Positions 43,418-59,253 of a stretch of 64,000 nucleotides of DNA are shown here, one piece after another. The stretch lies in the NCBI GenBank assembly GCA_023665325.1, contig JAMPED010000010.1:1-64000 (forward strand). Reading direction: 5' to 3'. The notes beneath the pieces are model-generated. The model had not been told where the DNA came from. It saw only the letters and a list, made by a program, of their open reading frames with translations, and made no database searches. The position numbers were made by a program, and so were the translations under genes. Within the stretch, counting starts at the first letter, position 1, and each line of letters starts with the position of its first letter. The stretch is from Acetobacter sp. (GTDB lineage: Bacteria > Pseudomonadota > Alphaproteobacteria > RF32 > CAG-239).

Positions 43418-43422
43418 AGTGT

Positions 43423-43451: not shown

Positions 43452-43481
43452 AATTTTGTATTTAGGTGGAGGATCCGGAAG

Positions 43482-45098: not shown

Positions 45099-45257
45099 AG
45101 CTTATAATATTCGGTAGAACAAACGGATAATTGTTTTTAGAATAAAAATAGAACAAAAAAGAGCAGGGGACTGTGCAAAACTTTGACAATGTGCTTGTCA
45201 ATCAGTGCATTTTAGGCATTATAACCATATATGTATTATGATTTAGGAGCTGAATTT

Positions 45258-46064
45258 ATGGTTAAAACTTTGGTGGTTATTCCGGCACGATATGGATCTT
45301 CAAGATTTCCGGGGAAGCCTTTGGCAAAAATTGCTGGCAAAGAAATGTTGTTACGTGTGGTGGAGATTGCAAAAAAAGGAACTGCACACACAGAAGCACG
45401 AATTGTTGTAGCAACGGAAGACCAGCGGATTGTTGATTTTTGCGTGGCTAATGGTGTTGAGTGTTTGATGACAAGTGATGCTTGCAAGACAGGTTCTGAC
45501 CGTGTTTGTGAGGCGGTTAAACTTTTGGGCGAAAAGCCAGAGTTTATTATAAATTTACAAGGAGATAATCCTGTTTGCCCTCCAAAGTTTATTGAAGAGT
45601 TGATTAGGGCTTTTGAAGAAGATAAAACGGTTGATTTGGTTACACCTTGCACCGAGCTTAGCTGGGACGCTTTGGATAAATTGCGTGAAAGCAAAAAGAC
45701 GACGCCATTTTCGGGGACGACTTGTGTGGCTGATAAAAATGGGTATGCGCTTTGGTTTTCAAAAAATATTATTCCAGCAATTCGAAAAGAAGCTGATTTG
45801 CGCGAGAAAAGTGAGAAAAGTCCTGTATTGCGGCATATTGGTCTTTATGGCTATAAGTCTGAATCTTTGTTTAAGTTCAAAGAGTTAGAAGAGAGTTCTT
45901 ATGAGAAACTTGAAGGATTGGAACAGCTGAGATTTTTAGAGAATGGAATGAAAATTAAGATTGCTAAGGTGGATTATGGCGCATTTGAGGGAATGAGCGG
46001 AGTTGATTCGCCTGAGGATTTGAAACGTGCTGAAGCATTGTTTGAGAAATATGGTGAGTTTTAG
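45258..46064 (+). CDS. kdsB: 3-deoxy-manno-octulosonate cytidylyltransferase (KdsB)
   Basis: Activates Kdo as CMP-Kdo for lipopolysaccharide core synthesis. The N-terminal VVIPARYGSSRFPGKPLAKI nucleotide-binding loop is complete, followed by VVATEDQRI, MTSDACKTGSDRV (usual: TS.DHPSGTDRV), NLQGDNP, and RHIGLYGY. AGGAG lies 8 nt before the ATG at 45258. Presence indicates a Gram-negative envelope with Kdo. Confidence 0.95.
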   Translation: MVKTLVVIPARYGSSRFPGKPLAKIAGKEMLLRVVEIAKKGTAHTEARIVVATEDQRIVDFCVANGVECLMTSDACKTGSDRVCEAVKLLGEKPEFIINLQGDNPVCPPKFIEELIRAFEEDKTVDLVTPCTELSWDALDKLRESKKTTPFSGTTCVADKNGYALWFSKNIIPAIRKEADLREKSEKSPVLRHIGLYGYKSESLFKFKELEESSYEKLEGLEQLRFLENGMKIKIAKVDYGAFEGMSGVDSPEDLKRAEALFEKYGEF

Positions 46065-46076
46065 GAGGTATTGTTT

Positions 46077-46724
46077 ATGACGACGAGAATCATTATTGCA
46101 CGCCACGGTAACACATTTACTAAAGACCAAACGCCACTGAGAGTAGGCGGGCGGACGGACTTGCCTTTGGTTGAGACAGAAAGAGGTGCTAATATTGGTA
46201 AATATTTGAAAATGCGTGGTTTGATTCCAGCAGTTGTTTTTGCTGCGCCGTTAAAACGGACAACCGAAACGGCTCGTTTGGCGATTGCAGCGTTGGATAA
46301 AGATATTCCTTTGAAAAGTGATGAGCGTTTTACTGAGATTGATTATGGTCCAGATGAGGCGAAGACTGAAGAAGAGGTTATTGCCCGTATTGGTCAAGAA
46401 GCTATGGATAAGTGGAATGCTGAAGCGATTGTTCCTGAAGGATGGAATGTGTCTGTTGACGGAATTATTAAGGCTTGGCAAGACTTTGCTGCAGAAATTG
46501 AACGTGATTATAAAGGTAAGACGGTGATGTTGGTTAGTTCAAATGGAATTATTCGTTTTGCTCCATATTTGACAGGCGATTTTGAGAAGTTTATTGAAGA
46601 ACACAATATCAAGGTTGGTACAGGCGGGGTGTGTATTCTTGAGAAAGAGGATGATGAGACATATTGGTCTGTGACTGATTGGGGAATTAAACCTAAAGAT
46701 AAATTGGTTGGTCTTGGTATTTAG
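46077..46724 (+). CDS. Histidine phosphatase family (phosphoglycerate mutase-like) protein
   Basis: 215 residues. The RHG catalytic motif is at about 9-11 (IIIARHGNTF), with APLKRTTETA near 56, the second catalytic Glu region DERFTEIDYG near 82, and the late His replaced by a Ser/Asn context (VSSNGIIRF near 155). The replacement of the second His may alter activity. It follows kdsB by 12 bp, with GGAGG before the ATG, so it may act on a sugar phosphate in the same pathway, though that is inference. A terminator follows at 46737-46762. Confidence 0.85.
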   Translation: MTTRIIIARHGNTFTKDQTPLRVGGRTDLPLVETERGANIGKYLKMRGLIPAVVFAAPLKRTTETARLAIAALDKDIPLKSDERFTEIDYGPDEAKTEEEVIARIGQEAMDKWNAEAIVPEGWNVSVDGIIKAWQDFAAEIERDYKGKTVMLVSSNGIIRFAPYLTGDFEKFIEEHNIKVGTGGVCILEKEDDETYWSVTDWGIKPKDKLVGLGI

Positions 46725-46736
46725 GTTTGGATTAAG

Positions 46737-46762
46737 GCTCTGAGTTTTTCAGAGCTTTTTTT
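46737..46762 (+). terminator. Terminator of kdsB-phosphatase operon
   Basis: GCTCTGA/TCAGAGC stem followed by seven T. Confidence 0.9.
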
Positions 46763-46984
46763 AGCGATGTGAGCGTGGAAATTATCATTTGTTTATATTG
46801 AGCTCGTTCTGAGCGTCCAAAATTTTATGTTGTAATTTGGCTGGAAGTCTTATCTGAATTGGTTTTGAAGTTGTTTGCAAAATAATTTTGTGTTTAATTT
46901 GTGTATGATTGATAAAAATGCGACATTTTATATTATTTAAATTTTGTTTATAAGATATTGTTTTTAATATTCTTTTTATATCTA

Positions 46985-47012
46985 ACTATACATAATATAT
47001 ATTATGCGACAA
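46985..47012 (-). other. dif: Intact dif-like Xer recombination site (left junction)
   Basis: Read on the minus strand: XerC arm TTGTCGCATAA, centre TATATA, XerD arm TTATGTATAGT. Compared with E. coli dif (arms GGTGCGCATAA and TTATGTTAAAT, centre TGTATA), the arms match at 7/11 and 8/11 positions and the inner bases next to the centre are identical. The XerC arm and centre are contributed by the element; the XerD arm lies on the chromosomal side. The host therefore keeps a complete dif at this junction. Confidence 0.8.
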
Positions 47013-47013
47013 G
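46994..47013. repeat. Left att direct repeat (20 bp)
   Basis: AATATATATTATGCGACAAG, identical to 55013-55032. It contains the dif centre and the XerC arm. Confidence 0.9.
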
Positions 47014-47019
47014 CTACTA

Positions 47020-47029
47020 AAACCCCACC
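47020..47029. promoter_or_regulatory. Left arm of a 10-bp inverted repeat that flanks attP in the circular form
   Basis: AAACCCCACC, the reverse complement of 54997-55006. Each copy lies exactly 6 nt from the att repeat, so in the circular form the 20-bp core is centred between them. Confidence 0.7.
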
Positions 47030-47144
47030 TACAAAGTTATAAATATAATCAATATCTTAAAAAAACGTTAAAATTTTTTAGTTTAAATTCAAAAAAAATT
47101 TTTATATACATACATAAAAATAATAAACGTTTTAGGAATTCTAA

Positions 47145-47549
47145 ATGAAATACGAAAATATTGTCCACATAAAAAGAATGATATCCACTTATTTCGAAGA
47201 TATTGAGGGTTTACTCAATGAATTAGAAGATTTTTCATTGAGTCCAATGAATTCCTCTTTTCTTAAGCAAGAACGTGATAAGTGTGCAAACGAGGCTTTT
47301 ACCTATTTTTTAGCTGGTTACGCTGTTGGTGAGATAAAAACACGCTTAAAGTTGATTTATAAAACTGTAGATGTTGACTTGATTGTTAATGAAACATACC
47401 GTGTTTTTGAGAAACGTATAACTCCACAACGCATTTTTGCGGCTCAAGCTATGAAAAAAGCAGATGTATCGACAAAGAAAATAGCCCAAGTTTTAGGCTT
47501 GAGCGTTCCGACTGTGCTTAAATATTTAAGTAAAACAGATATTAGCTAG
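47145..47549 (+). CDS. Phage HTH protein, candidate repressor or regulator
   Basis: 134 residues, helical. The C-terminal 30 residues form a helix-turn-helix (STKKIAQVLGLSVPTVLKYL), similar to recombinase/invertase-type or sigma-like HTHs. It is the only rightward gene of the element. In the circular form it diverges from the HTH gene at 54277-54975 with att between them, the usual place for a regulator. It could instead be an accessory factor for Xer recombination. The upstream 130 bp are extremely AT-rich and hold two AACGTT palindromes (47064, 47126). Confidence 0.6.
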   Translation: MKYENIVHIKRMISTYFEDIEGLLNELEDFSLSPMNSSFLKQERDKCANEAFTYFLAGYAVGEIKTRLKLIYKTVDVDLIVNETYRVFEKRITPQRIFAAQAMKKADVSTKKIAQVLGLSVPTVLKYLSKTDIS

Positions 47550-47976
47550 TTTTCTTAATAAAATGTGCTGGGTTTCCTGCCCAGACTTCACCTGCTGGAA
47601 TATCTTTGAGGACGATACTCCCTGCTCCGATGACTGCATTGTCGCCGATGTGAACGTTGCCGATAACGACGGCGTTGGCGTATATGGTTACATTATCGCC
47701 TAAAGTTGGGGCGTATTCCCCTTTTCTTCCGATGGTAACATTTTGATATATTGTGCAATTTTTACCGATTGTGGCTCTATCTGAAATGACTATACCTACT
47801 TGATGTATGAGTTTTAAATTATTTTCTCTATACCACTTTTTTAATAAATTATATGGTATATTGCAGCATCTCTTAGCTTTTTTGAATTTATTGGTATAGT
47901 ATTGAAAAATTTTTATACCAAATATGTAAAACTCACGTTTTCCGTTTTCGTATTTGACTCTGTGATATGCTTGCAT
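47542..47976 (-). CDS. Left-handed beta-helix acetyltransferase (serine acetyltransferase-like) carried by the prophage
   Basis: 144 residues. After an N-terminal helical part, residues about 60-140 show hexapeptide repeats typical of the left-handed beta helix: VGIVISDRATIGKNCTIYQNVTIGRKG, then NVTIYANAVVIGNVHIGDNAVIGAGSIVLKDIP and AGNPA (shown as separate motif pieces). The arrangement resembles serine O-acetyltransferases and LPS or capsule O-acetyltransferases. Its start lies 5 nt beyond a perfect 14-bp hairpin (47982-48014). As the last leftward gene, separated from the structural genes by that hairpin, it is best explained as a cargo (lysogenic-conversion) gene. Acceptor unknown. Confidence 0.8.
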   Translation of the reverse strand: MQAYHRVKYENGKREFYIFGIKIFQYYTNKFKKAKRCCNIPYNLLKKWYRENNLKLIHQVGIVISDRATIGKNCTIYQNVTIGRKGEYAPTLGDNVTIYANAVVIGNVHIGDNAVIGAGSIVLKDIPAGEVWAGNPAHFIKKTS

Positions 47977-47981
47977 AGATA

Positions 47982-48014
47982 AATCTCTTAAAAGTTTAAT
48001 ACTTTTAAGAGATT
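47982..48014 (-). promoter_or_regulatory. Perfect 14-bp hairpin between structural genes and acetyltransferase
   Basis: AATCTCTTAAAAGT (47982-47995) pairs with ACTTTTAAGAGATT (48001-48014) around a 5-nt loop. No T run follows on the minus strand, so a classical terminator is unlikely. The only purine-rich stretch that could bind the ribosome for the acetyltransferase (AAGAGA) is inside the stem. It could hide the start on long transcripts or be a protein-binding palindrome. Confidence 0.6.
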
Positions 48015-48052
48015 AGTTTAATCAAAAGTAAGTGTCAATTTAAAACTAAAGG

Positions 48053-48181
48053 TTATGAGTTTAGAAAATCAGATAAAAAGCCCCTGCTCTTCTTTTTTCT
48101 CGTTGTCTTTCTTTTGCGTGTTGTAACCTTGCGTTTTGTTGTTTTCTTACGTGTAGATGTGCGTTTTTTACGTGTTGCCAT
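48053..48181 (-). CDS. Protamine-like basic protein of the prophage (42 aa)
   Basis: Read directly from the sequence: ATG at 48181, stop at 48053. 42 residues, of which about half are Lys or Arg in the first 35 (MATRKKRTSTRKKTTKRK...), ending in a short hydrophobic segment GFLSDFLNS. GGGGG precedes the start and the stop of the previous gene is 2 nt upstream. It is probably a DNA-condensing or membrane-binding virion protein. A larger frame in another register (48061-48279) overlaps it but lacks a start signal. Confidence 0.7.
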   Translation of the reverse strand: MATRKKRTSTRKKTTKRKVTTRKRKTTRKKKSRGFLSDFLNS

Positions 48182-48182
48182 A

Positions 48183-48317
48183 TTAGCCCCCTATAAGTTG
48201 AATAAGTGATGTTAAAAATTCCGGAAAGGTTGCCGACCCTGCGACAAGTGCGCCCAGTGCCGACAAAAATCCACCCCAAAAGGTTTTACTTTTTATAGTA
48301 TCTTTGATGTTGCTCAT
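48183..48317 (-). CDS. Small membrane protein of the prophage (44 aa)
   Basis: ATG at 48317, stop at 48183. 44 residues with a hydrophobic segment (FWGGFLSALGALVAGSATF). It overlaps the end of the holin-like gene in another frame and ends 2 nt before the basic protein gene, so the three are tightly packed. Unknown role; membrane or lysis component. Confidence 0.6.
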   Translation of the reverse strand: MSNIKDTIKSKTFWGGFLSALGALVAGSATFPEFLTSLIQLIGG

Positions 48318-48438
48318 TGATAATCCCCTCAATCTGTGCAATTCTTTCGCCTAATTCGCCAATTTTTCGTGCGTAATACATAAAAATCACAAAAAATGGA
48401 CTATTGGCTAAAAGTTGGTTAAAAAGCTCTTGTTCCAT
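48286..48438 (-). CDS. Holin-like protein of the prophage (50 aa, BhlA/UviB-type)
   Basis: ATG at 48438, stop at 48286. 50 residues: a short N-terminal part, one hydrophobic helix (SPFFVIFMYYARKI) and a charged amphipathic helix (GELGERIAQIEGII). This layout matches the BhlA/UviB class of small holin-like proteins. It lies just downstream of the SleB hydrolase region, which fits a lysis module. GGTAGGGA precedes the start. Confidence 0.6.
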   Translation of the reverse strand: MEQELFNQLLANSPFFVIFMYYARKIGELGERIAQIEGIINEQHQRYYKK

Positions 48439-48451
48439 TCCCTACCCCGCT

Positions 48452-48637
48452 TTACTTCTTTTTCATTAAAGAAAAGCCGTAAACAACGCACGCACCAATT
48501 AAAAGCCATTTACCCCAATTAGCCTGCTTTTTCATTTGTTCGTTTTCCTTTTTGTTCTCTGTGTAGCTATCCCAAGCCCAATCAATACCAAGCCCTGCTA
48601 ACAAAGAACCGCCTACTTTTGCAATAGTTGCCCACAT
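48452..48637 (-). CDS. Small membrane protein of the prophage (61 aa)
   Basis: Hydrophobic N-terminal segment (about 3-20), a charged middle with KKENEQMKKQ, and a second hydrophobic segment (WLLIGACVVYGFSLM, about 44-58), ending in KKK. GGAGG precedes the ATG. Probable membrane or virion component. Confidence 0.7.
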   Translation of the reverse strand: MWATIAKVGGSLLAGLGIDWAWDSYTENKKENEQMKKQANWGKWLLIGACVVYGFSLMKKK

Positions 48638-48649
48638 AGTTTTTACCTC

Positions 48650-48802
48650 CTATAATTTTTTTATCATTTTGTACCCGAAATAAAGGATAAAAGCCGTTGA
48701 AACAACGTTGAAAATGCTTAATCCTTTATTGTCGGCGTTGATTGACTTATCGAAGATCGAAAAGCCTAAGGCGCCGCCTAAAAAACTTACTAAATATCCC
48801 AT
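48650..48802 (-). CDS. Small membrane protein of the prophage (50 aa)
   Basis: ATG at 48802, stop at 48650. 50 residues with two hydrophobic segments (YLVSFLGGALGFSIF, and FNVVSTAFILYFGY) flanking a polar loop. GGGAGG lies 5 nt before the start, and the gene fits exactly between the SleB gene and the next small gene. Unknown role. Confidence 0.65.
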   Translation of the reverse strand: MGYLVSFLGGALGFSIFDKSINADNKGLSIFNVVSTAFILYFGYKMIKKL

Positions 48803-48812
48803 TTATCCTCCC

Positions 48813-49268
48813 TTATTTGTAAAAGATGTGATTACCGATTACTGCTGTTTGGGTCATATTTTTTGCCCACGTCGGCGAAACGTTTGTTGCGTGGTAATTT
48901 GTTGCGCCGTTGGTGATGTCGTCAAGACTGCCGCTTATGAGTTGTTCGGCAATTTTTCGGGCTTGCGCAAGGTCTTTATCTGTTGCGTTTAGCATTTTTA
49001 CCCTGTTGGGGTCGTTAATATTCCACGCTGAAAACTGATAAGGCTTTAATACTACGTCTTTTATGCTTGCGCCGTACCAGCCACCGGCTTTTACACGGTT
49101 TAAGATAACGTTTCCGACTGCTTGCATACCGCGGGCGCCCTCTCCTCGGGCTTCTCCCCACATTGTGCGCGCTAAATAGTCGGTTTGGTTGTCTGTCATA
49201 TCGTACCCCTTTTTAAGTATCCTATACGCCAAATAAGCGGCGGCTATGTATGCAAGCCACTTAATCAT
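48813..49268 (-). CDS. SleB-type cell wall hydrolase of the prophage
   Basis: 151 residues with an N-terminal membrane anchor (about 1-20) and a Hydrolase_2/SleB-like catalytic domain: the catalytic-Glu segment ARTMWGEARGEG near 33-44, QAVGNVILNRV near 48-58, YQFSAWN near 78, and ATNYHA near 125. These enzymes cleave peptidoglycan glycan strands. A membrane-anchored small muralytic enzyme fits either endolysin with delayed release or a virion entry enzyme. Overlaps the next upstream gene slightly. Confidence 0.88.
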   Translation of the reverse strand: MIKWLAYIAAAYLAYRILKKGYDMTDNQTDYLARTMWGEARGEGARGMQAVGNVILNRVKAGGWYGASIKDVVLKPYQFSAWNINDPNRVKMLNATDKDLAQARKIAEQLISGSLDDITNGATNYHATNVSPTWAKNMTQTAVIGNHIFYK

Positions 49269-49578
49269 TTAAATTAACTTTCGGATATTTCTCTTTGATT
49301 TCTTTGATTTTTTCAAACCATAAGTTTGTGCCGTTTTCCTTATCGTGGAAAATCATATCAAGTTGTTCGCCGATGTCTGGATATTCTGCAAGGCGTTTTT
49401 CTTTATATGTTAATTCAGGTTTTGATGGCGCATAACCAGCAATATACCACTCACCAGTATAAGCTTGTTCTACGTCCATTTCTTCCATTCCGAGGGATTT
49501 ATAGTATTCTATATCATCATCTAATCCAACATCGCACTGTTTTGTTGTATTATTAACTATGGTCGCATATCTAAACAT
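49261..49578 (-). CDS. Phage protein with a tail-fibre/assembly-type C-terminal segment
   Basis: 105 residues from ATG 49578, preceded by AGGAGA. The C-terminal part RLAEYPDIGEQLDMIFHDKENGT, in which the key element is YPxIGxQLDxIxHD, is a motif often seen in phage proteins next to receptor-binding genes. The N-terminal part is unknown. Likely partner of the two upstream beta-rich proteins. Confidence 0.65.
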   Translation of the reverse strand: MFRYATIVNNTTKQCDVGLDDDIEYYKSLGMEEMDVEQAYTGEWYIAGYAPSKPELTYKEKRLAEYPDIGEQLDMIFHDKENGTNLWFEKIKEIKEKYPKVNLND

Positions 49579-49586
49579 TTTCTCTC

Positions 49587-49994
49587 CTAATCTGTGCATT
49601 TATAGGTTTTAAATGTACGCGTTATATTATAACCCGACACAATATTTTTAAATTTATATGTACAACCTTTAGGTACCAATACAAAAACTGTGCAGGCATT
49701 ATATTCAAATGATTTTAAATTTGCTATTGCTGTACCATTAACTTCTATATTTATTTCTGCAGCAGAACCCCCTCCTTCTGCACCACTTAATAAGGATGCG
49801 TATAACCATAAATTATCTTCTGCTGTATATTGAGTATCCATTGTTTTTGATACTCCAGTTTTTGCAGATATTGTACCCCATTTAATAATTTTTTGCTTTG
49901 TGTCTACTGTTGCATTATTAGCGGTAAAACCTGCTATAGTTTGCTTTTGTGCTGTTGTTGCGCCGTCTGGTGTGAAATTTATGGCTTGTAACAT
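49587..49994 (-). CDS. Beta-rich structural protein, spike or receptor-binding candidate
   Basis: 135 residues from ATG 49994 (GAGG 9 nt upstream; a longer TTG frame to 50009 is less likely). Predicted mostly beta strands with Thr/Ala/Gly-rich turns, no TM. Position between the 194-residue beta-rich protein and the IGxQLD-motif protein suggests a virion spike or host-recognition part. Confidence 0.6.
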   Translation of the reverse strand: MLQAINFTPDGATTAQKQTIAGFTANNATVDTKQKIIKWGTISAKTGVSKTMDTQYTAEDNLWLYASLLSGAEGGGSAAEINIEVNGTAIANLKSFEYNACTVFVLVPKGCTYKFKNIVSGYNITRTFKTYKCTD

Positions 49995-49995
49995 T

Positions 49996-50580
49996 TTAGT
50001 ACCTCGCAATTATAACGTTTGCTATACCTGTTCCGGTAAGTGTGAGTGTTCCAGCAGTTGAAAAAACAACTTCAAAGCTTTCACCGCCTTGCATTTGATA
50101 GTTGGTAAAACCCAAGCCCGAAACGGTGATACTTCCGCTTTTGACAAGAAAATTGACTTTGTCGCCCGATGTGATGTCTAGTGTTGCATTGTCGACGATG
50201 TTTAACGTTTGGGCGTTTATGCTCGAATATGATTTATCTTGTGAAATTGCCTGAATTGCGCCGGAAACTGATAGCCGGTTATCTTGAATTTCACCGATGG
50301 CAAGGGCAAAATCAACCTCTAAATCACTTGCGCTATCATTAAATAAAATGATGTATTGCACCGGCTCTGTTAATTTATAACCCATACCGGTTTTGAAGTA
50401 TGTTTCATTTACTGCACCGCCAAAGTTGATGCGTAAAGCGTTTTCCACGCTTGCGTACAACAAGTTAAATGCTTGAAAAACATAATCAATTTTTAAGCTG
50501 CGTCCTGCCGGAATTGTATATTTAAACTCTTGATAAGGTGCTTGAACTGAACCGATGTTAATAAGTTGATTATCTGCCAT
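49996..50580 (-). CDS. Beta-rich virion protein, penton/spike candidate
   Basis: 194 residues without TM or signal peptide, alternating hydrophobic/polar strands throughout, ending in a Gly/Thr-rich strand pair (VVFSTAGTLTLTGTGIANVII). In corticovirus-like genomes a spike or penton protein of similar character lies downstream of the capsid gene. AGGT(A/T) site upstream. Confidence 0.6.
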   Translation of the reverse strand: MADNQLINIGSVQAPYQEFKYTIPAGRSLKIDYVFQAFNLLYASVENALRINFGGAVNETYFKTGMGYKLTEPVQYIILFNDSASDLEVDFALAIGEIQDNRLSVSGAIQAISQDKSYSSINAQTLNIVDNATLDITSGDKVNFLVKSGSITVSGLGFTNYQMQGGESFEVVFSTAGTLTLTGTGIANVIIARY

Positions 50581-50583
50581 TGT

Positions 50584-50988
50584 TTACCTCTTGTTTTTGA
50601 AGATAAAATAAAAGATTGCGGCAATCATTCCATACATTGCAATCGGGCGTATGGCGTCGATTGCATTGCGTAACTCGCTTTTGCTTTCCGCATAAGCGTT
50701 GCCGGTTTCGGTGATTGCTGTTTCGGTTGTTTTTTGTACGGCTTGCACTGCTTGCCCGAATAAATCACGTGTTAGGGTTTGAGAGCTTTCGACTGTTCCT
50801 AAAACAGATTCTAAATTTTCTCCCGTAAGTCCTTGTTCAACATAGCTATAGTTCGAACCGCTACCAATAACGAGGTTATCGTGCGACAATGCGCCCAAAC
50901 TTGCCGCTGAATCGTTATTTGTCGAATTGTCGGTGTAAGTTGTGGTTGTGGAAGATTTTGACTTCGATTTTGAACTAAATAACCCCAT
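50584..50988 (-). CDS. Virion membrane protein candidate (134 aa)
   Basis: Ser/Thr/Lys-rich N-terminus (MGLFSSKSKSKSSTTTTYTD), a long helical central region and a C-terminal TM helix (MYGMIAAIFYFIF, about 118-131) ending in KNKR. C-terminal anchored proteins like this are characteristic of tailless, membrane-containing viruses. Confidence 0.65.
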   Translation of the reverse strand: MGLFSSKSKSKSSTTTTYTDNSTNNDSAASLGALSHDNLVIGSGSNYSYVEQGLTGENLESVLGTVESSQTLTRDLFGQAVQAVQKTTETAITETGNAYAESKSELRNAIDAIRPIAMYGMIAAIFYFIFKNKR

Positions 50989-50991
50989 TTG

Positions 50992-51288
50992 TTACCTCGC
51001 AATCTTTTTAAACAGCCAATAGCCGACCAAAACAACGCCGCCAATCATTAAAATTTTACCAAACCCAAGTGTCGGGCTGTCAATTTGGATATTTGACGAG
51101 TGAACGCCCCAATTACCGGTAGACAATCCAGAGTTTGCAGTTGCACTGGAAGAGCCTAACCCCGCACCGAAATTGTTTAAAAAATTGCTAGGGTTGAGGA
51201 AGTCGTCCAAGCCGAAACTTGCCTCAACTTCCCCAACATAGCCGCCGGTGTTTTGGTTATTATCCGCATTGTTTTGACTGCTTGCCAT
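50992..51288 (-). CDS. Virion membrane protein candidate (98 aa)
   Basis: Asn/Gly/Ser-rich N-terminal 75 residues followed by a C-terminal TM helix (ILMIGGVVLVGYWLF) and KKIAR. It starts 3 nt after the previous stop. Same topology as its two neighbours. Confidence 0.65.
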   Translation of the reverse strand: MASSQNNADNNQNTGGYVGEVEASFGLDDFLNPSNFLNNFGAGLGSSSATANSGLSTGNWGVHSSNIQIDSPTLGFGKILMIGGVVLVGYWLFKKIAR

Positions 51289-51291
51289 TGG

Positions 51292-51546
51292 TTATTTTCT
51301 CCGTAACAAAACCACCAATACAACGGCAAGAATAGAACCGCCGGCAATCCAAAGCAAAGTTTCTTTTGAAAGCTGCATCCCTAAAAAAGATAGTTTTTCA
51401 TTTTTCGTTTGTGCTTCAGCGAGAACTTTTTGTTCTTTTACGGCTTGATTAGATTGTAAATATTGGTTAGTTGTACCCAAAATGGCGTTGCCCCACCATT
51501 CCCACCAACTTTGTCCGTTGTCGTTTGCTGTGCTATTACCTGACAT
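51292..51546 (-). CDS. Virion membrane protein candidate (84 aa)
   Basis: N-terminal polar part with WWEWWGNAILG, a helical middle (about 30-50) and a C-terminal TM helix (LLWIAGGSILAVVLVVLL) ending in RRK. Third consecutive gene with a C-terminal membrane anchor. Confidence 0.65.
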   Translation of the reverse strand: MSGNSTANDNGQSWWEWWGNAILGTTNQYLQSNQAVKEQKVLAEAQTKNEKLSFLGMQLSKETLLWIAGGSILAVVLVVLLRRK

Positions 51547-51600
51547 TTTAAACCTCTTTTCTTATTGAGGGCGTCATAAAAACGCCCTCTTCCCCCTTAA

Positions 51601-52464
51601 TTAAGCCGCTACAGCTTTGAGCATTCCCTCCGGAATATTCCGGATAGAAACGGCTAACAAGTCATAAGTTCCGTTTGCTGGTGCAGCTGAAAACGTTGTC
51701 TTTAGGCGCAGTTCTGTAACGCCGACCATCGGTAAGAATGTTTTAACTGAACCATCGCTGAAAGAGTAGTTAAACACATTTTCAACTTGTGAAAGCCCGC
51801 GGGCGTCGCAAATATAGTTGACTTTAGCCAAGCTTGTCGGGTCATAAATTGAGTTACCATTTACTACGCATTCACCAAGCGAAATTTCTCCGCCGCCATT
51901 GTGCGCCATAATCTGCAAGTATCCCTCATTGGAATCACGTGGCAAGGTATCGACCGTTGAAATACCTGTTGTGTTCATTGTCTGCGGATAGTTGATAACT
52001 TTAATAAACGACCCAAGATTTGCGGTCATTGAGCGGCGAATTGTCGAAATTGCACAATCTGTTACATCTGTTACGGTTGCGTTTACATATACCTGCAGTT
52101 GTAAAGTTTGTACGTTTTGACAACCCCAAGCAAAATAATCTTCGGTTGTTGGGTCTTTGAACAAATAACGAGCCACATTTAAGCCGATAACGTTGGCAAG
52201 CTTTTGTGTTACTTCTGTGCCTAAAGACGCATAAACATCGTATAAACGGGCTAACGGGCAGTTTATTACCTGTTCACCGTTAATAGTTAGCGCAATTTTG
52301 CCGATTGAAGACAAAATATTGGCTTTTTCTGCTGGTGCGCCTGCGTTGGTGAACTCAACGAGAACATCGTCGATTACATCAAAAGACGGAATATTGAAAG
52401 TCAAAACAGTTCCTGCAGAGAGTGATTTTGTGTCGTGGTCGATAATTTTTTTAACTTGACTCAT
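51601..52464 (-). CDS. Major capsid protein candidate (double jelly-roll type)
   Basis: 287 residues, all-beta in character, two successive domains of about 140 residues each with similar strand/turn patterns. Key early motifs are LSAGTVLTFNIPSFDVI, SSIGKIALTINGEQV and ARLYDVYASLG; late ones are VTELRLKTTFSAAP and YDLLAVSIRNIP. Length and position, just downstream of the packaging ATPase and next to tiny membrane proteins, match P2 of corticovirus PM2 (about 270 residues) and relatives. GGGGG precedes the ATG. The double jelly-roll assignment is recognition from overall pattern, not an alignment. Confidence 0.7.
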   Translation of the reverse strand: MSQVKKIIDHDTKSLSAGTVLTFNIPSFDVIDDVLVEFTNAGAPAEKANILSSIGKIALTINGEQVINCPLARLYDVYASLGTEVTQKLANVIGLNVARYLFKDPTTEDYFAWGCQNVQTLQLQVYVNATVTDVTDCAISTIRRSMTANLGSFIKVINYPQTMNTTGISTVDTLPRDSNEGYLQIMAHNGGGEISLGECVVNGNSIYDPTSLAKVNYICDARGLSQVENVFNYSFSDGSVKTFLPMVGVTELRLKTTFSAAPANGTYDLLAVSIRNIPEGMLKAVAA

Positions 52465-52479
52465 ATTAACCCCCTACCC

Positions 52480-52563
52480 TTATTTTGAAGTTGAATCTTT
52501 GATAAATTCGTAAATGTAAATTCCGGCAACTACACCGGCAACAATTTTAAGAAGTGATTTCAT
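52480..52563 (-). CDS. Tiny membrane protein of the prophage (27 aa)
   Basis: ATG at 52563, stop at 52480. 27 residues with a single hydrophobic helix (LLKIVAGVVAGIYIYEF). GGGGGAAA precedes the start. Such 25-45-residue membrane proteins are common in PM2- and PRD1-type viruses. It lies right before the capsid gene, in the same transcript. Confidence 0.65.
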   Translation of the reverse strand: MKSLLKIVAGVVAGIYIYEFIKDSTSK

Positions 52564-52610
52564 AGTTTCCCCCTGTTAATTAAATAAAATCTAGGGAAAT
52601 ATTACATAAC

Positions 52611-52640
52611 AAAAAACAGCGGGTCAAAATGCCCGCCGCT
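52611..52640 (-). terminator. Terminator between ATPase and capsid genes
   Basis: Minus strand: GCGGG/CCCGC stem with a 7-nt loop followed by TGTTTTTTG. It would separate early genes (HTH to ATPase) from the virion genes. Confidence 0.65.
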
Positions 52641-52671
52641 TATATATGTTATATATATGTATATTATATAA

Positions 52672-53313
52672 TTATTTTGTAACAGTAACAACAACGCCTG
52701 TACGCATTTTGTAAACATACTGATAATTCGCTAAACTTTGGATTTTATCTTTATAAGGCTTTCCAATCATTTTAACGGCGTTATCTATATCGTTGAAGTC
52801 GGCAAGTCTGAAGACGAATAAATCGCTTAAATTTGCTCTGAAAGGCAAGTCTACAAGCGACATTCTTTGTGAGATACCTACGATATTTACGCCATAATGA
52901 CGCCCACGACAACAAAGGAAGTAAAACCAATTACTAGGATTTACACGTGATTGATTAAGCGGAAATGATAAATCTAATTCGTCAACAAATAGTGTTATAT
53001 TTGCATTTGAAGCGCCATCTTTAAATTGTCTTTGAATATTTACGATAAGTTCGCAAAGTTTCGATAATTCTATAATCATAGCTGGGAAATGAGGCGTATA
53101 TCGGACTTGAAAACCCTTGTTGTAATTTTTCATAATAAAATCAAATAAACTAACGATGCTTGAAAAACTTTTCTTTACCGGTAAATCGTCTAATGGGTCA
53201 AAATAAATCACACGTTTAACGTTTTTGACTAATCCTAGGGCAAGGGTCGTTTTACCGCTACCGCTTGCCCCGAAAATCCCGATCCTTGCAGATTGTTTAA
53301 GCTCTTTCTTCAT
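52672..53313 (-). CDS. Packaging-type ATPase (FtsK/HerA superfamily)
   Basis: 213 residues, no TM. Walker A GASGSGKT at 14-21, Walker B LFVDELD near 107-113, and a sensor-like GVNIVGISQR near 138-147. The compact size and the RHYGVNIVGISQRM arrangement fit genome-packaging ATPases of tailless DJR viruses (PM2 P9, PRD1 P9) rather than filamentous-phage Zot, which is longer and has a C-terminal TM. It overlaps the preceding gene by 17 bp. Confidence 0.85.
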   Translation of the reverse strand: MKKELKQSARIGIFGASGSGKTTLALGLVKNVKRVIYFDPLDDLPVKKSFSSIVSLFDFIMKNYNKGFQVRYTPHFPAMIIELSKLCELIVNIQRQFKDGASNANITLFVDELDLSFPLNQSRVNPSNWFYFLCCRGRHYGVNIVGISQRMSLVDLPFRANLSDLFVFRLADFNDIDNAVKMIGKPYKDKIQSLANYQYVYKMRTGVVVTVTK

Positions 53314-53812
53314 TTGCTTTACCTTTTAAGAATGGGAAAAAGCCGCTTTTTTCCGGCTCGGATTGTTTTAACTTGAATAAACGCTTAAACACACGTTTAA
53401 TTCGTCCGCCTAGGGTTAAACCGCCAATCTTTCGGCTTAAGGCGTCCGCTTTTGCATAAGCAAAAATTCCAACCATTACAAAATCACCAAACCAACCGCC
53501 GGTTGGCTCAATCAAGAAATGTAGCATTTTATAGCGTTCAGCCATCGAATAAAGTTTTTTTGCTGATACTTTGGCGCCAGCAACCTCGAATGGCTTGTTT
53601 ACATCGATAGCGAAACCGTCAATTTTCCAAAATTCACCGACAAGCCCAAAGAACTCGAAAAAGTATTTTTCAAACTCTTCAGGCGTTAAAAGTAAGTTTT
53701 GTTCGCTCTGTGTTGGGTTTTCGGCGGCGGATGTCATCACTTCTTCAAAAACTTCCTCAACGTTGATTGTGCCATCATTGTTTGCGATAATATCGTTTAA
53801 ATTTTCCATCAT
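53297..53812 (-). CDS. Prophage protein of unknown function (171 aa)
   Basis: Acidic N-terminal 45 residues, a helical middle domain with FEKYFFEFFGLVGEFWKIDG and a moderately hydrophobic segment (WFGDFVMVGIFAYAKADAL, about 108-126), then a basic tail with GGRIKRVFKRLFKLKQ. It may be membrane-associated. It lies directly before the ATPase. GAGGAG precedes the start. Confidence 0.65.
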   Translation of the reverse strand: MMENLNDIIANNDGTINVEEVFEEVMTSAAENPTQSEQNLLLTPEEFEKYFFEFFGLVGEFWKIDGFAIDVNKPFEVAGAKVSAKKLYSMAERYKMLHFLIEPTGGWFGDFVMVGIFAYAKADALSRKIGGLTLGGRIKRVFKRLFKLKQSEPEKSGFFPFLKGKANEERA

Positions 53813-54087
53813 TAAAACTCCTCTTCTTCGTCATTCCAAAATGATTTTTTTGATTCTGCAGAATCTGCTTTTACTGCTTGAACGGGCGTAATAACTCCGA
53901 TTTTCTCAACGGCAATGCTTTTGCCTGCTGATAAACTTGCTAAAACAGCTCTACTTTGTTTTGCCCCTAATTGCGCCTTGCAACCATTGTCGCAAAACGA
54001 ATAAATCTTGCGGTTTTTGTTTGCTTTTACGTCTTGTGCCCGTTCACCACATATCGGGCAAGTCCATCTTCCTATGATTTCCGGCAT
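53812..54087 (-). CDS. Prophage zinc-finger protein (91 aa)
   Basis: A four-Cys zinc finger: CPIC (about 10-13) and CDNGC (about 32-36), followed by a helical C-terminal part with DEEEEF at the end. Likely DNA-binding or a regulator. It overlaps its neighbours at both ends, typical of compact phage genomes. Confidence 0.7.
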   Translation of the reverse strand: MPEIIGRWTCPICGERAQDVKANKNRKIYSFCDNGCKAQLGAKQSRAVLASLSAGKSIAVEKIGVITPVQAVKADSAESKKSFWNDEEEEF

Positions 54088-54275
54088 AATTCCCTCGCAC
54101 TTTCTCTTGTTAGTAAAATTCCATTTACTGTAAAGCTTTCATATTCTTTACAATGCTTTAATATTCTGCGCCATTGCTCCAAAACTTCTGGCGTAAACTC
54201 GCCGATGTATTGATTTTCAATGAGCTTGCGCTTTTTTCCGTTCTTAAAAACATAACCGGTTACGATATAGGGCAT
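54072..54275 (-). CDS. Small prophage protein (67 aa)
   Basis: From ATG 54275 (GAGG 6 nt upstream, located inside the preceding gene). Mixed alpha/beta, with YIVTGYVFKNGKK and a helical ILKHCKEYESF segment. Unknown role. An upstream ATG at 54296 has a poorer site. Confidence 0.55.
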   Translation of the reverse strand: MPYIVTGYVFKNGKKRKLIENQYIGEFTPEVLEQWRRILKHCKEYESFTVNGILLTRESARELCRKS

Positions 54276-54276
54276 A

Positions 54277-54975
54277 TCAAACCTCACTTTCACCATATAT
54301 ACGATTGTTGAAATTCAAATAAGCTATTTCATAGCCTAGTTGATAGGTTAAAAATTCCGCAATTTGGCTTTTATCCTCTACTTGCGGGTGCAAAAAAATA
54401 CCACACAGCGGGCGCACATAGACGCCTTGCGGTGTGGCTAATAGTTTAAAATCTGATAAGTAAGCGTATTTGTTTTGTAGGTCTTTGAAGTTGTCGTGAA
54501 GTTGCTTTTTTTCCTCGTCGCTTAAAACTTGCACATCTTCATTGCCTAGCTCGGCGACTTTGTCGCCCTCGCGCGCGGGTACGCACGCGGTATTTAAATT
54601 AAAATTATTATTATTACATTGCTTATAGTTCGTTGCGACATCTGTGTCGTATGGGGTGCGACATTCTTGTCGCATACCCTGCGACATATTTGTCGTATCG
54701 CTTTCGGGGTCTAATTTTAAGTAATATCCATTTGAAGTGTAGCCGCCATCTTGTTTAATTCTTTTCGAGCGTGCTATAACTTTTTCTTTTTCTAAACGTG
54801 ATAAACTTCTTTCTACGGTACGCCGACACACGCCTAAAATTGTAGCAATTTTGGCGATAGATGGGAAACAATAACCGTCAGAATTAGCGAATCCTTGAAT
54901 TGATAAATAAACACGTAAGTCTGTTGATTTTAAATTTTTGTTTATAAATACTTTTTGTGGACATATAGAAAACAT
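54277..54975 (-). CDS. HTH_36-type protein, candidate replication initiator or early regulator
   Basis: 232 residues. Residues about 15-90 form a winged HTH of the type found at the N-terminus of plasmid and phage replication initiators: LKSTDLRVYLSIQGF, CFPSIAKIATILGVCRRTVERSLSRLEKEKVI. The C-terminal half is unassigned. I see no HUH or rolling-circle motifs. It is the first gene of the leftward train. Its ribosome binding site (GGAGG, 6 nt before the ATG) is inside a hairpin at 54977-55006. Either replication initiation or transcription control is possible. Confidence 0.7.
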   Translation of the reverse strand: MFSICPQKVFINKNLKSTDLRVYLSIQGFANSDGYCFPSIAKIATILGVCRRTVERSLSRLEKEKVIARSKRIKQDGGYTSNGYYLKLDPESDTTNMSQGMRQECRTPYDTDVATNYKQCNNNNFNLNTACVPAREGDKVAELGNEDVQVLSDEEKKQLHDNFKDLQNKYAYLSDFKLLATPQGVYVRPLCGIFLHPQVEDKSQIAEFLTYQLGYEIAYLNFNNRIYGESEV

Positions 54976-54976
54976 A

Positions 54977-55006
54977 AAACCCCTCCGTTGCTACACGGTG
55001 GGGTTT
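54977..55006 (-). promoter_or_regulatory. Hairpin masking the ribosome binding site of the first prophage gene
   Basis: AAACCCC (54977-54983) pairs with GGGGTTT (55000-55006), and CCG with CGG inside, around an 8-nt loop. The strand complementary to GGAGGGG lies in the stem. The right arm GGTGGGGTTT (54997-55006) is also the inverted repeat of 47020-47029, so in the circular form the arm has two possible partners. Confidence 0.65.
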
Positions 55007-55012
55007 ATCGAA

Positions 55013-55032
55013 AATATATATTATGCGACAAG
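55013..55032. repeat. Right att direct repeat (20 bp)
   Basis: Identical to 46994-47013. Read on the minus strand, the XerC arm and centre are intact but the third part is TTTTCGATAAA, a poor XerD arm. This identifies the phage attP as XerC-proficient and XerD-degenerate. Confidence 0.85.
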
Positions 55033-55073
55033 GTGAAGGTGCCCTTTTTAGTGCTATAAAATATCCATACAAT

Positions 55074-55105
55074 AAAAACCGACGTTGTTGGACGTCGGTT
55101 TTTTA
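55074..55105. terminator. Bidirectional terminator next to the prophage
   Basis: ACCGACGT/ACGTCGGT 8-bp stem with A run on the left and T run on the right. It ends the 55116-55766 gene and would also block transcription into the prophage from the right. Confidence 0.85.
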
Positions 55106-55115
55106 TGGGTTGTGT

Positions 55116-55766
55116 TCATTGTTTACGTTGTGTGAACAACTGAGAGATGTCTTCTTTGCTTAAGACATCTTGATAGCTCATCAAGGCTTTAAAATAGCTA
55201 TCCATAAATGTATTGCGGTGCCAATCTGTTTGTTGGTTTTCTCCGCAATTATTTAGGTAGATGTATCCCTTCTCTAGCAATGGTGGAATACCATTTATCA
55301 GCTCCTCACCGTGAGTATGCTCTGGGTGATTGATGAAGTAGTGTACAGTTTCCTGATTAAACAAACTGTTAGGAGCACATATTGTTTGGCTCCCCAAAAG
55401 TAACAGTTGTTTAGCATAGATGCAAACGTATATTTGCCAAAAGTCTGCAAGCTGTGTATCCTTTTGTTTCAGTAATGGCTGCATTTCCTTTTGCAATTGT
55501 ATGGCAAGTGTTTTGGTGTCATAAACACCACTAGCTAAGCAATCTTGCCATATTGCAATGTTTTCAGGTTTTAGCCCTAGCTCCCGAAAGCGGAAACTGA
55601 TTTCAGGCTTTGTAGAGAACTTTTCAAGGTCTGAAATAAAGGATTTCAAACGATATACGGGGAGGTTTTTTGCACCTTTGAGGGCAAAAATTAGACTGGA
55701 TGCGAATATGCGTTTAAGCATCCCCTGCCCGACAACGGATAATCTGTCAGTTAATAATGTGGACAT
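55116..55766 (-). CDS. Protein of unknown function next to dif (216 aa)
   Basis: Predominantly helical, no TM or signal peptide. It contains HPEHTHGEEL and IYLNNCGENQQTDWHRNTFMDSYFKALM segments (shown only to indicate His/Trp content). No family recognised. Before integration of the prophage this gene lay directly beside dif. Confidence 0.65.
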   Translation of the reverse strand: MSTLLTDRLSVVGQGMLKRIFASSLIFALKGAKNLPVYRLKSFISDLEKFSTKPEISFRFRELGLKPENIAIWQDCLASGVYDTKTLAIQLQKEMQPLLKQKDTQLADFWQIYVCIYAKQLLLLGSQTICAPNSLFNQETVHYFINHPEHTHGEELINGIPPLLEKGYIYLNNCGENQQTDWHRNTFMDSYFKALMSYQDVLSKEDISQLFTQRKQ

Positions 55767-55909
55767 AAATATTTGAGTTTTAAGAATTATATATTTTGTA
55801 TATTTGGGGTAGCATATTTTATGGTGGGAGTCAAGGTGATTTTACTTGATTTTACATTTTGGGAGGGATATGGTTGAGATAAATAAATGTTTAAATTTGG
55901 GAGATTGAT

Positions 55910-56698
55910 ATGCGACGGTTTGGTCTAAAGTTATGGTCGAAAGATTTTATTAAAAACAAAGAGTTCGCGAAGGATGCTGAGAAAGCACTTAAAGATGGGA
56001 AGTTTGATTATTTGGAGTTATTTGCCCTGCCCTCTACGTTTGAAGATACGAAAGATGCTGTTAAGGCTGGCTTTTTAGGGCAAAAAGTTATTATTCACGC
56101 ACCACACGGAATACAAAATTTGGATATATCTAATCCTGAAGAGTTGGAAAATAATCGTGTTCGGCTTAAAGATTCGCAGCTTTTTGCTGATATGTTGGGG
56201 GCGGATATTATTATTTTGCACCCTGGAATGCAGCGCGGTGAGTCGTTTTTAGAAGAGAGTATTCGACAATTTAAACTGATGAATGATGAGCGTTTAACTG
56301 TGGAAAATTTACCAGGATACTGTTCACAAACAAAACGTCTTTTGCACGGAATTGAGCCGGTGGAAATTAAACGGTTAATGCAGGAAACTGGTGCAAAGTT
56401 TTGTCTTGATTTTTCACACGCAATTTGTGGTGCAAATACCTATAATCGTGATATTTATGAGGTTTTGAATGAGTTTAAGGCGTTAAAGCCTGCAATGTAT
56501 CATCTTTGCGATGGTGATGTCGCGAGTACGAATGACAGCCATTTGCATTATGGCGAAGGAAATTATGATTTACGACGTTTGGTAATAGAGTTTACAAGCG
56601 AAGACGCCTTGATTACGATGGAAACAGGGCACGGGATTCCGACAGATGTGACACCTTGGTTGGCGGATATTGAATATATTCGGCGAGTGGTGGCTTAA
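55910..56698 (+). CDS. Sugar phosphate isomerase/epimerase-like TIM-barrel protein
   Basis: 262 residues of the xylose isomerase-like/AP endonuclease 2 TIM-barrel superfamily. Metal-site strands are visible: VIIHAPHG near 62, IIILHPG near 102, LTVENLPG near 128, LDFSHA near 165, YHLCDGD near 200 and ITMETGHG near 238. The usual H, E, D/H set of metal ligands is complete. Substrate unknown. GGGAG precedes the ATG. Confidence 0.85.
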   Translation: MRRFGLKLWSKDFIKNKEFAKDAEKALKDGKFDYLELFALPSTFEDTKDAVKAGFLGQKVIIHAPHGIQNLDISNPEELENNRVRLKDSQLFADMLGADIIILHPGMQRGESFLEESIRQFKLMNDERLTVENLPGYCSQTKRLLHGIEPVEIKRLMQETGAKFCLDFSHAICGANTYNRDIYEVLNEFKALKPAMYHLCDGDVASTNDSHLHYGEGNYDLRRLVIEFTSEDALITMETGHGIPTDVTPWLADIEYIRRVVA

Positions 56699-56846
56699 GG
56701 TAAAGCTTTGGAGAAACACTGAGGCGCGTACGCTATGGTGTTGTTGTTTTCCTCCTTAAGGGGAGGAAAATTTTGCTTGTGTCTTTTTAGGAAATGATGT
56801 ATAATCTTTTTATGTTGTAGATAAAACGGCGAGAAGGATTAGAACT

Positions 56847-57113
56847 ATGGGCTGTTTTTTGTTAAATGAATTGGGTGAGGTATTGCTAGAACTTGCTTCT
56901 GGGCTTGATTTTCGCTCGGATTTGCGTTTAGAAATTGATGAAGAAGCGCAATCTGCTGTTTTGAAGAGTGAAAATGGGAGTTTTACCGTGGGGTTTGTGC
57001 ATCGCGATTTATTGTTACCGCTTAAAAAAAATCGCTATTTATTTGTGGTAGAAAGAAATAATCAGTTTTATGCAATGAAAACAAAACTGGCTAAAGTGGT
57101 GTTTACAGGATAG
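56847..57113 (+). CDS. Small protein of unknown function (88 aa)
   Basis: Begins MGCFLLNELGEVLLEL; mixed beta with Lys-rich C-terminal half. AAGGA precedes the ATG, and it lies 10 bp before the zincin-like gene, so the pair may be an operon. No family recognised. Confidence 0.55.
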   Translation: MGCFLLNELGEVLLELASGLDFRSDLRLEIDEEAQSAVLKSENGSFTVGFVHRDLLLPLKKNRYLFVVERNNQFYAMKTKLAKVVFTG

Positions 57114-57123
57114 GAATTTTAAT

Positions 57124-58491
57124 ATGAAAGCAAATGTTTATACTGGTTTCTTAACTGATAAAATAAAAATTTATGATACGAAAAAAGACTGTCAGCCTAA
57201 AAAGGTTTCAGGGAGAAAATTGTATCGTGCGTTTCCTTTGCTTTTATCTTCATTGATGGTATCGCCTGTGTCTTGTCTGGTACCAGAACATTCTTCGCAA
57301 AATGGTGAAGATGCGCATAAAATAACCTGGTTTGCTCCTGATGTTGCATCTAAGGATGATACTAAGGAATTTTTGTCGGATGCTGAAGTTAAGAAAATTA
57401 TAGCAAATCCCTGCCCTACGCCATTGAAAGATATCAATTTTAATCATTTACCAGAACATCAGGAGAATTTTTGGGAGATTGTTCTTAATGGTGTGGCTGT
57501 TAGTAATGAAGTGCAACGTAGTTCGAGATTATCGGCTGAACAGAAAGCAGAATATCGGATTACAACATATAAGATGCTTTCGCAGATTAGTCGTATTAAA
57601 GGAAGTACAAATGATGTTGATGTGCGTGATTTCAATAATTTAAAAACGTTTCTTTATTTTGAAAAAATGGTACGCTATAAAGATAAATATGCAAAAGTTT
57701 TAGGACAGCAGAGCGGTGTTATTGATGAAAGATGTGCGTTATTTGGACGATATTATCAAGATCAGGAGAATTTGAAAACTGCGGTTGAGGCGCATTCTGG
57801 AGTGAAGAAATTTGCTAAAGCTTTATATGGATGCGATGAGCGATTCGTTTTGAGTTATAATGACAGTATTCAAGCTAATAAAATGAGTCGGGAGATATTA
57901 GCTGATTGGCTTGCTAAGCAACAAGTGAATGATGATAATTTGTGGTATTATGTTAAAAATGATGAATATGATTATTGTAATACGTTGGTTGTTTATACTT
58001 CGCGAGGAAATCCAGTTCGGGTACAATTAGGTGTGGACCCTACTGGTGATTTGGGAGATGGATGTTATTCACCAGTTGGTTCAACTTTAATTCACGAATT
58101 GATGCATTTGGGGCAGAAAAAGCCTTCTTCTAAAGAAAAACCGGAAGATAACCAGAAAGATGATGGAGATGTAAAAGTACGTCCCTCGCGCTATGATGAT
58201 TATACGATGGAATTAGGACCAACTCTTTATTCTCTAGCAATTGAAGATCAGATGTATAAGAAAATTCACGGGATTGATCAGGATGCTGTGGTTGATTATG
58301 GGGATATTGATTTTGGGACGCACCGTGTGAGTGTTGGAAAGACTGCAGTATGGTTTCGAAAAATGATTGAAAAATATCCTTCTTTAAGTGTGGATAAGGT
58401 TTTGACAGAACCGGAGGTACTTGAATATATGGAACATTTGGGTAATAATGCAATTGTGCAACATATGCAGCAGGTACGTGGTGGAAGATGA
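57124..58491 (+). CDS. Exported zincin-like metallopeptidase candidate
   Basis: 455 residues. A hydrophobic segment (about 34-50) ends in SPVSC, so a lipoprotein or signal-anchored form is possible although the basic N-terminal part is long. The HELMH motif (HExxH zinc site, about residue 324) follows TLIHELMHLG, with a possible third ligand Glu in DYTMELGPTLY about 40 residues later. No known peptidase family is recognisable. The body is helical and unlike typical secreted proteases. Substrate unknown. Confidence 0.6.
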   Translation: MKANVYTGFLTDKIKIYDTKKDCQPKKVSGRKLYRAFPLLLSSLMVSPVSCLVPEHSSQNGEDAHKITWFAPDVASKDDTKEFLSDAEVKKIIANPCPTPLKDINFNHLPEHQENFWEIVLNGVAVSNEVQRSSRLSAEQKAEYRITTYKMLSQISRIKGSTNDVDVRDFNNLKTFLYFEKMVRYKDKYAKVLGQQSGVIDERCALFGRYYQDQENLKTAVEAHSGVKKFAKALYGCDERFVLSYNDSIQANKMSREILADWLAKQQVNDDNLWYYVKNDEYDYCNTLVVYTSRGNPVRVQLGVDPTGDLGDGCYSPVGSTLIHELMHLGQKKPSSKEKPEDNQKDDGDVKVRPSRYDDYTMELGPTLYSLAIEDQMYKKIHGIDQDAVVDYGDIDFGTHRVSVGKTAVWFRKMIEKYPSLSVDKVLTEPEVLEYMEHLGNNAIVQHMQQVRGGR

Positions 58492-58565
58492 GATGTAAAT
58501 CTTCTGGTGGATAGCGACGATTTTGCTTGCAATTTATTTTTTATACCTTTACATATAGGGCAGCT

Positions 58566-58655: not shown

Positions 58656-58668
58656 GTTTATTGCTTGT

Positions 58669-59245: not shown

Positions 59246-59253
59246 CAGGACAA

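Follow-up and report, generated by a model that had tools for sequence, protein, structure and literature searches.

A very likely Vinavirales prophage at the dif site of an alphaproteobacterium and its possible route of integration

How does a compact group of virus-like genes with no recognizable integrase come to occupy a bacterial chromosome between two copies of a short repeat? The question is raised by an element at positions 46994 to 55032 of the 64,000-nucleotide stretch analysed here (hereafter the window), taken from contig JAMPED010000010.1 of an Acetobacter sp. assembly (GCA_023665325.1). We consider it very likely that this 8.0-kb element, inserted at dif, is a Vinavirales prophage, its virus being tailless and of the kind placed in gut clade A, with a predicted double-jelly-roll capsid and what would be an internal membrane; the host recombinases XerC and XerD likely inserted it. 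The original prediction, made from the window by eye, had described a tailless, double-jelly-roll, dif-integrated and temperate-looking element, and this description is supported by the predicted capsid fold, the profiles of the ATPase, the make-up of the dif ends and the empty sites of relatives.

The 20-bp direct repeats (46994-47013 and 55013-55032) lie 8,019 bp apart, as had been noticed, and this spacing gives the size of the element; the leftward gene train between them was recovered from the open reading frames (ORFs), 21 of which are named below. Judged by their sequences, both ends are derived from dif. An intact 28-bp dif lies on the minus strand at 46985..47012, at the 3' end of the gene train, with all arms intact and the XerC arm toward the element; it reads TTGTCGCATAA TATATA TTATGTATAGT, the complete layout of XerC arm, centre and XerD arm. 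At the replication-gene end is a half dif (55004..55031, also minus strand), which matches in the XerC arm at 11/11 positions and in the centre at 6/6, and in the XerD arm at 6/11. Among 127,946 positions in the window there is no third dif-like 28-mer, as defined by one arm matching at 10/11 or more and the centre at 5/6 or more. A single intact dif remains, at the 3' end of the element, and the end sequences imply an attP composed of a XerC arm, the whole dif centre and a degenerate XerD arm. For the most part the GC skew of the element runs from about -0.13 to +0.02, and that of the nearby host is mostly +0.2 to +0.4.

We compared this arrangement with that of related loci and genomes, designated L and G respectively. 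Assembly extends through both ends of seven elements, counting that of the window; L009 needs a second contig (L081) for this, and L012 is too short. In all seven, a complete dif is found opposite the rep end and a half site at the rep end. The half site is of the XerC type in five (the window, L001, L009, L010 and L011), matching at 11/11 in the XerC arm, 6/6 in the centre and 3-6/11 in the XerD arm. In L013 the half site is a mirror image (centre 6/6, XerD arm 10/11, XerC arm 5/11), and the ends of this element are borne out by L203, a sister with an empty site, whose flanks are 90-91% identical over 1.9 and 5.5 kb, with dif at the junction. L014 has a weaker mirror site (XerD arm 9/11, centre 4/6, XerC arm 4/11), and the mirror class therefore comprises one firm and one weak case. 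In the tree built from the ATPases, L012, L013 and L014 group together as a single clade. A helix-turn-helix regulator candidate is present at the complete-dif end of the seven elements, as judged by homology in five, by weak matches in L013 and by DNA similarity to L013 in L014. In L013 (12091-12480) and L014 (11963-12382) there is also an extra helix-turn-helix gene (HTH_19, HTH_3), divergent from rep and located between rep and the half site.

The dif pattern was found exactly once per genome in 110 of the 153 related genomes, and a reversed control in none. When one extra free base was allowed in the pattern, six of the seven carriers had exactly one intact dif, located at the element edge, and one (G095) had none. 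Empty sites were recognized by their flanks, with KdsB and Pgm on the left (Pgm alone on short contigs) and a gene for a 262-aa protein on the right; the right-flank gene at 55116-55766 has few and distant homologues (in six of 153 genomes, at 22-27% identity), so that the 262-aa gene served as the main marker on this side. An empty dif flanked by the window's neighbours was found at four of 30 pattern loci (L021, L022, L023 and L026), and L205 and L206 show the same when wider stretches are compared; a match to the capsid was obtained in none of the six genomes concerned. Related elements sit at the sole intact dif that their genomes yielded, and the empty site is seen in related genomes. In G069, host-element, element-element and element-host junctions are found on two contigs (L009 5941-13952; L081 1-90), which points to a tandem prophage or to a circle coexisting in the sample. 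The capsid gene is present in seven of the 153 genomes of the order; a search of 385 genomes of the class added, beyond G001, a match in G174 on a 4.4-kb contig that lacks the ends and a distant one in G162. L001 came from a contig scan, as the sole one of 25 stretches to encode a relative. The window's host is itself alphaproteobacterial as judged by its flanking KdsB and Pgm, which are 88% and 81% identical to those of L001, a metagenome-assembled genome titled Alphaproteobacteria bacterium from water deer rectum.

The gene product that would define the virion is a protein of 287 aa (51601..52464; this and all further ORFs are on the minus strand unless stated), the candidate major capsid protein. 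It is predicted to fold as two jelly rolls, as does PM2 P2, so that the outcome named in the original prediction as refuting it, a fold of some other kind, did not come about. Compared with PM2 P2 by profile, the capsid scored 75.5% with a 47-row profile and 7.8% with a seven-locus profile. The capsid of L009 (8884-9753) is 74% identical to that of the window, whereas its ATPase (7983-8660) is only 45% identical and groups with another clade; this mismatch may be read as module exchange between such prophages.

The ATPase (213 aa, 52672..53313) is of the P9 packaging type. Its profile, built of 40 rows (the window protein and 39 of 103 matches), prefers P9 of Jorvik (99.2%) and of PM2 (97.7%) over the Zot-type pI of M13 (16.9%, all by hhalign); a grouping with Zot or plasmid transfer proteins, which had been named as counter-evidence, did not come about, M13 pI being the single Zot-type protein compared. 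At E <=0.01, 25 of the 40 ATPases match the Pfam family HerA, 19 match Zot and 17 match Pox_A32. In a tree of 27 rows, Jorvik and phage YY fall on the same side as the gut proteins, apart from PM2, NO16 and Vibrio phage E12 (98/98), subject to long-branch warnings. PHROG 2666, labelled 'terminase large subunit', also matches this ATPase at positions 318-519 of 555 (E 2.1e-17), the protein being P9-like by profile.

A Pfam scan of all 21 ORFs gave no above-cut-off match to any integrase, terminase, portal or tail family, in keeping with the absence of these functions noted earlier; beside the PHROG label stands a weak Terminase_5 match (E 0.0044, 17.4 vs 20.3 bits cut-off) of the 134-aa helix-turn-helix protein described below. 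At the right-hand end, a 232-aa helix-turn-helix protein (54277..54975) is the candidate replication initiator (Rep), with matches to PF13730 (HTH_36, E 5.5e-14) and to the replication initiation family PHROG 270 (E 3.6e-17). Its Pfam matches include no HUH family, and PM2 P12, which is an HUH-type replication protein, is outside its four best profile matches. It is followed by a 74-aa protein with no Pfam match (54072..54296), a P14-like zinc-ribbon-type protein of 91 aa (53812..54087), which over about 30 residues aligns with NO16_0023 (86.4%) and PM2 P14 (81.5%, both by hhalign) and has a weak Lar match below cut-off, and a 171-aa protein upstream of the ATPase (53297..53812). The last is assigned to the ORF h position by location and conservation; it scores 5.0% against Jorvik gp6 by hhalign, and PM2 gp h is outside its four best matches. 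Between ATPase and capsid, at the P7 position, is a 27-aa membrane-type ORF (MKSLLKIVAG..., 52480..52563) which had previously been missed and is present in five of six relatives checked (L001, L010, L011, L013 and L014, but not L009).

Between capsid and candidate spike, where P3, P8 and P10 would be expected, are three consecutive proteins of 84 aa (51292..51546), 98 aa (50992..51288) and 134 aa (50584..50988), whose best profile match is 21%. As had been stated of them, each has a hydrophobic stretch near its C-terminus, the most hydrophobic residues being 65-81, 73-89 and 113-129 respectively. The next protein (194 aa, 49996..50580) is predicted to consist of two all-beta domains (pLDDT 79.4, pTM 0.47) with non-specific fold matches, and is a candidate penton or spike at the P1 position. 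The gene after it varies between elements: the slot holds a tail-collar-domain protein in L001 (12464-12979) and L009 (11213-11695), and a gp34/gp53-like fibre end in L010 (6590-7189). Because these three relatives have tail-fibre-type proteins there, the 140-aa protein that occupies it in the window (49587..50009; no Pfam match, and a weak one to PHROG 18834, E 0.013) is a candidate receptor-binding protein. A 112-aa protein (49261..49599) precedes the likely endolysin, a SleB-type cell wall hydrolase of 151 aa (48813..49268), which was correctly recognized from the start (PF07486, E 2.7e-25; PHROG 938 endolysin, E 5.5e-28).

Next come hydrophobic proteins of 50 aa (48650..48802) and 61 aa (48452..48637), a further 50-aa protein in the lysis region (48286..48438), a 52-aa hydrophobic protein (48183..48341) and a very basic 42-aa protein (48053..48181), the L001 counterpart of which is 93% identical; these five ORFs of 42-61 aa account for the several proteins of under 62 residues reported before. 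The 52-aa protein is the holin-like one of the original prediction, a description that stands as to size and hydropathy and gains no Pfam match. Beyond these is a cargo slot with a hexapeptide acyltransferase of 144 aa (47542..47976; PF00132, E 2.3e-15), which is related to EpsC and WcaB models (the best NCBIfam model is EpsC, at 95 bits vs a cut-off of 150) and has no homologue in the seven related loci searched, L012 lacking that end. As a guess, it might alter the host surface against superinfection. The final gene, on the plus strand (47145..47549), encodes a helix-turn-helix protein of 134 aa that adjoins the intact dif, has weak HTH matches below cut-off and has relatives at the same element end in L001, L009, L010 and L011. 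It is a candidate regulator, for which the position label TR_Z1 is suggested by analogy with PMC9502842.

Viruses of this kind are already known; what is new here is how those of the gut would integrate, in two mirror forms. Yutin et al. 2022 (PMC9502842) describe Vinavirales as the main part of gut varidnaviruses, report 176 contigs of which 142 are prophages, mostly of Alphaproteobacteria and Verrucomicrobia, and propose the family name Mestraviridae for clade A of the human gut (the HGV groups). The element resembles clade A, as characterized in that paper, in its capsid, ATPase, SleB hydrolase, candidate fibre gene, candidate P15-locus regulator, alphaproteobacterial host and prophage state, and in that the Rep proteins of the clade include DnaD-like winged-helix ones. 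Integration outside HGV-2, which has a transposase, is called unclear there; dif, Xer, att and integrase as whole words have no match in its main text, and in the open-licence literature, supplements (among them Jorvik Figure S3A) aside, we found no report of dif use by the gut group. Rhodobacter phage Jorvik and phage YY are ratified Mestraviridae (PMC12451628). Jorvik, a temperate alphaproteobacterial relative, is described as an 8.8-kb circle with a P9-type ATPase, no predicted integrase and dif-like att sites (PMC10589892), all of which resembles our element; it differs in sitting in the RuBisCO operon, with an attB location called variable (PMC10589892), in having an M15 peptidase and a transglycosylase where our element has SleB, and in a capsid that is missed by the window-family profile and a Rep that remains unmatched (3.5%). 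The suggestion that the element would widen the host and lifestyle range of its group is thus not borne out, as a majority of prophages (142/176), mostly in Alphaproteobacteria and Verrucomicrobia, and SleB in clade A are reported in PMC9502842 and a temperate relative in PMC10589892.

The comparison with PM2 made earlier holds at the level of the order, where capsid fold, P9, the P14-like protein and gene order are shared, and not at that of the family Corticoviridae: PM2 has the P12 replication protein and the LytD-type P5 lysin, whereas our element has a helix-turn-helix Rep and SleB, and PM2 P5 appears only once in the four-best lists per family, at 2.3% (a weak single-sequence test). As a whole, the original prediction is partly supported. 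Double-jelly-roll phages have been linked with dif before, in PhiCjT23 (PMC9719478), Jorvik, NO16 and Vibrio prophages. NO16 (Asemoviridae) and other tailless Vibrio prophages are reported at dif or dif-like sites (PMC9966536, PMC11630473); their hosts are Gammaproteobacteria, and the Vibrio prophages, unlike our element, regularly carry integrase genes, their route being described as inconclusive (PMC11630473).

Phages that exploit Xer recombination are described in three layouts (PMC4246890, PMC5357621). The attP of TLCphi agrees with dif in the centre and on the XerC side, and departs from it on the XerD side (PMC5357621), as does that implied by our element, and since the six-base centre is identical, this description suits it better than VGJphi-type integration, our first guess, which we rejected. 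TLCphi differs in being a satellite without virion genes (PMC4246890), and L013 and, more weakly, L014 differ from it in using the mirror half; that layout (centre and XerD arm) was not found among those set out in PMC4246890 and PMC5357621. Xer-type genes were found in all eight related genomes searched, with two of full length in six and one in each of the sisters G058 and G065; none of the matches is above the curated cut-off, and insertion by host XerCD is for this reason inferred only. One of G058 and G065 hosts a mirror-type element; that a single full-length Xer recombinase was found in each may reflect assembly gaps.

In the life cycle that we propose, host XerCD would join attP to dif, so that a working dif would stay at one edge for the host. 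When the element is circular, the regulator and rep would be divergent, back to back around attP, and insertion would therefore part them to opposite ends of the prophage; that this parting aids dormancy is a guess. Once excised, the circle would be replicated through the Rep initiator, and its DNA packaged by the P9-type ATPase into a double-jelly-roll capsid lying over a membrane that bears the small membrane proteins; lysis would follow through the SleB hydrolase and a holin. A broader proposal is offered tentatively, as possible although on balance doubtful: that the gut Vinavirales clade is a Xer-exploiting family using either dif half, mostly the XerC arm and centre in TLCphi-like fashion and in one clade the mirror (centre and XerD arm), and that insertion splits the replication control region, ties dormancy to recombination and leaves the host one working dif. 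A hairpin is predicted immediately ahead of rep in the window (54975-55009, minus strand), and also in L001 and L010; the sequences differ and there are only three cases. An att hairpin switch, in which the inferred attP of the window is flanked by GGTGGGGTTT and AAACCCCACC, was rejected as a mechanism because L001 fails the shuffle test (shuffles reached the duplex energy in 809/1000 cases, compared with 8/1000 for the window and 18/1000 for L010), because swapped flank pairs are equally strong in some cells, and because the minimum-energy fold of the joined leader retains another hairpin. An Rfam search gave no match.

Could the element instead be what is left of such a virus, decayed and no longer mobile, and retained for its dif copy or because cargo such as the hexapeptide acyltransferase is useful? 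The rarity of the capsid gene within the order, a variable cargo slot adjoining the regulator and the lack of a directly seen free form would fit this explanation. However, no ORF is interrupted, relatives with capsids 34-74% identical have the same gene order, G069 has its element-element junction, and 37 of 120 capsid homologues, among the matches listed, are on contigs of about genome length; we therefore regard a remnant as improbable. An Inovirus-like or plasmid-like element that exploits Xer, in which the ATPase is Zot/pI-like and the beta protein is no capsid, is more improbable still: integrase-free insertion at dif is described as typical of filamentous phages (PMC4246890, PMC5357621), and the ATPase has a weak Pfam Zot match (E 6.7e-4), but this match is below cut-off (19.6 vs 20.3 bits) and M13 pI, the only one tested, is far behind P9, so that the ATPase is not of the pI/Zot type of Inoviridae. 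We give just as little credence to a single-stranded DNA double-jelly-roll virus of the FLiP/PhiCjT23 kind, which also inserts at dif, even though PhiCjT23-like prophages are reported with a similar size (6.0-8.4 kb) and dif ends (PMC9719478). When 19 gene families were compared by profile with PM2, Jorvik and NO16 proteins, clear links were found only for the ATPase and the zinc ribbon.

A Vinavirales prophage remains our preferred reading, and several observations weigh against it. Neither a virion nor excision or integration of the element has been seen. The capsid is below the Pfam P2_C cut-off (18.2 vs 25 bits), its sequence profile finds PM2 P2 only at E 0.051 and misses Jorvik P2 (hhalign 2.8%), and the spike, the ORF h protein and the membrane proteins take their labels from gene position and not from homology. 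The Zot match of the ATPase is short of its cut-off by just 0.7 bits, and 19 of the 40 profiled ATPases match Zot. The host GC skew does not show the usual flip at dif, being positive on both sides (42000-60000) and falling toward zero only at 60-62 kb. In 146 of the 153 genomes of the order no match to the capsid was obtained, and capsid searches of phage records and IMG/VR gave no relative. By the ATPase profile IMG/VR has only distant ATPases, in seven loci (five over most of the profile at 32-35% and two short); together with the 120 stretches listed from a half-dif pattern scan of IMG/VR these make 127 viral loci examined, none with the capsid and four with weak matches to Rep at 28-30%.

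With ends mapped, an element-element junction and empty dif sites, an integration hitherto unexplained becomes testable, and the exact ends can serve to find further such prophages. The gut double-jelly-roll lineage would join the viruses that live off the chromosome-dimer resolution site and, if true, the mirror use of dif halves among closely related elements would amount to a natural test of which Xer arm is required for invasion. Elsewhere in the window, a 1,418-aa protein (28338-32594) has an N-terminus which by eye is prepilin-like.

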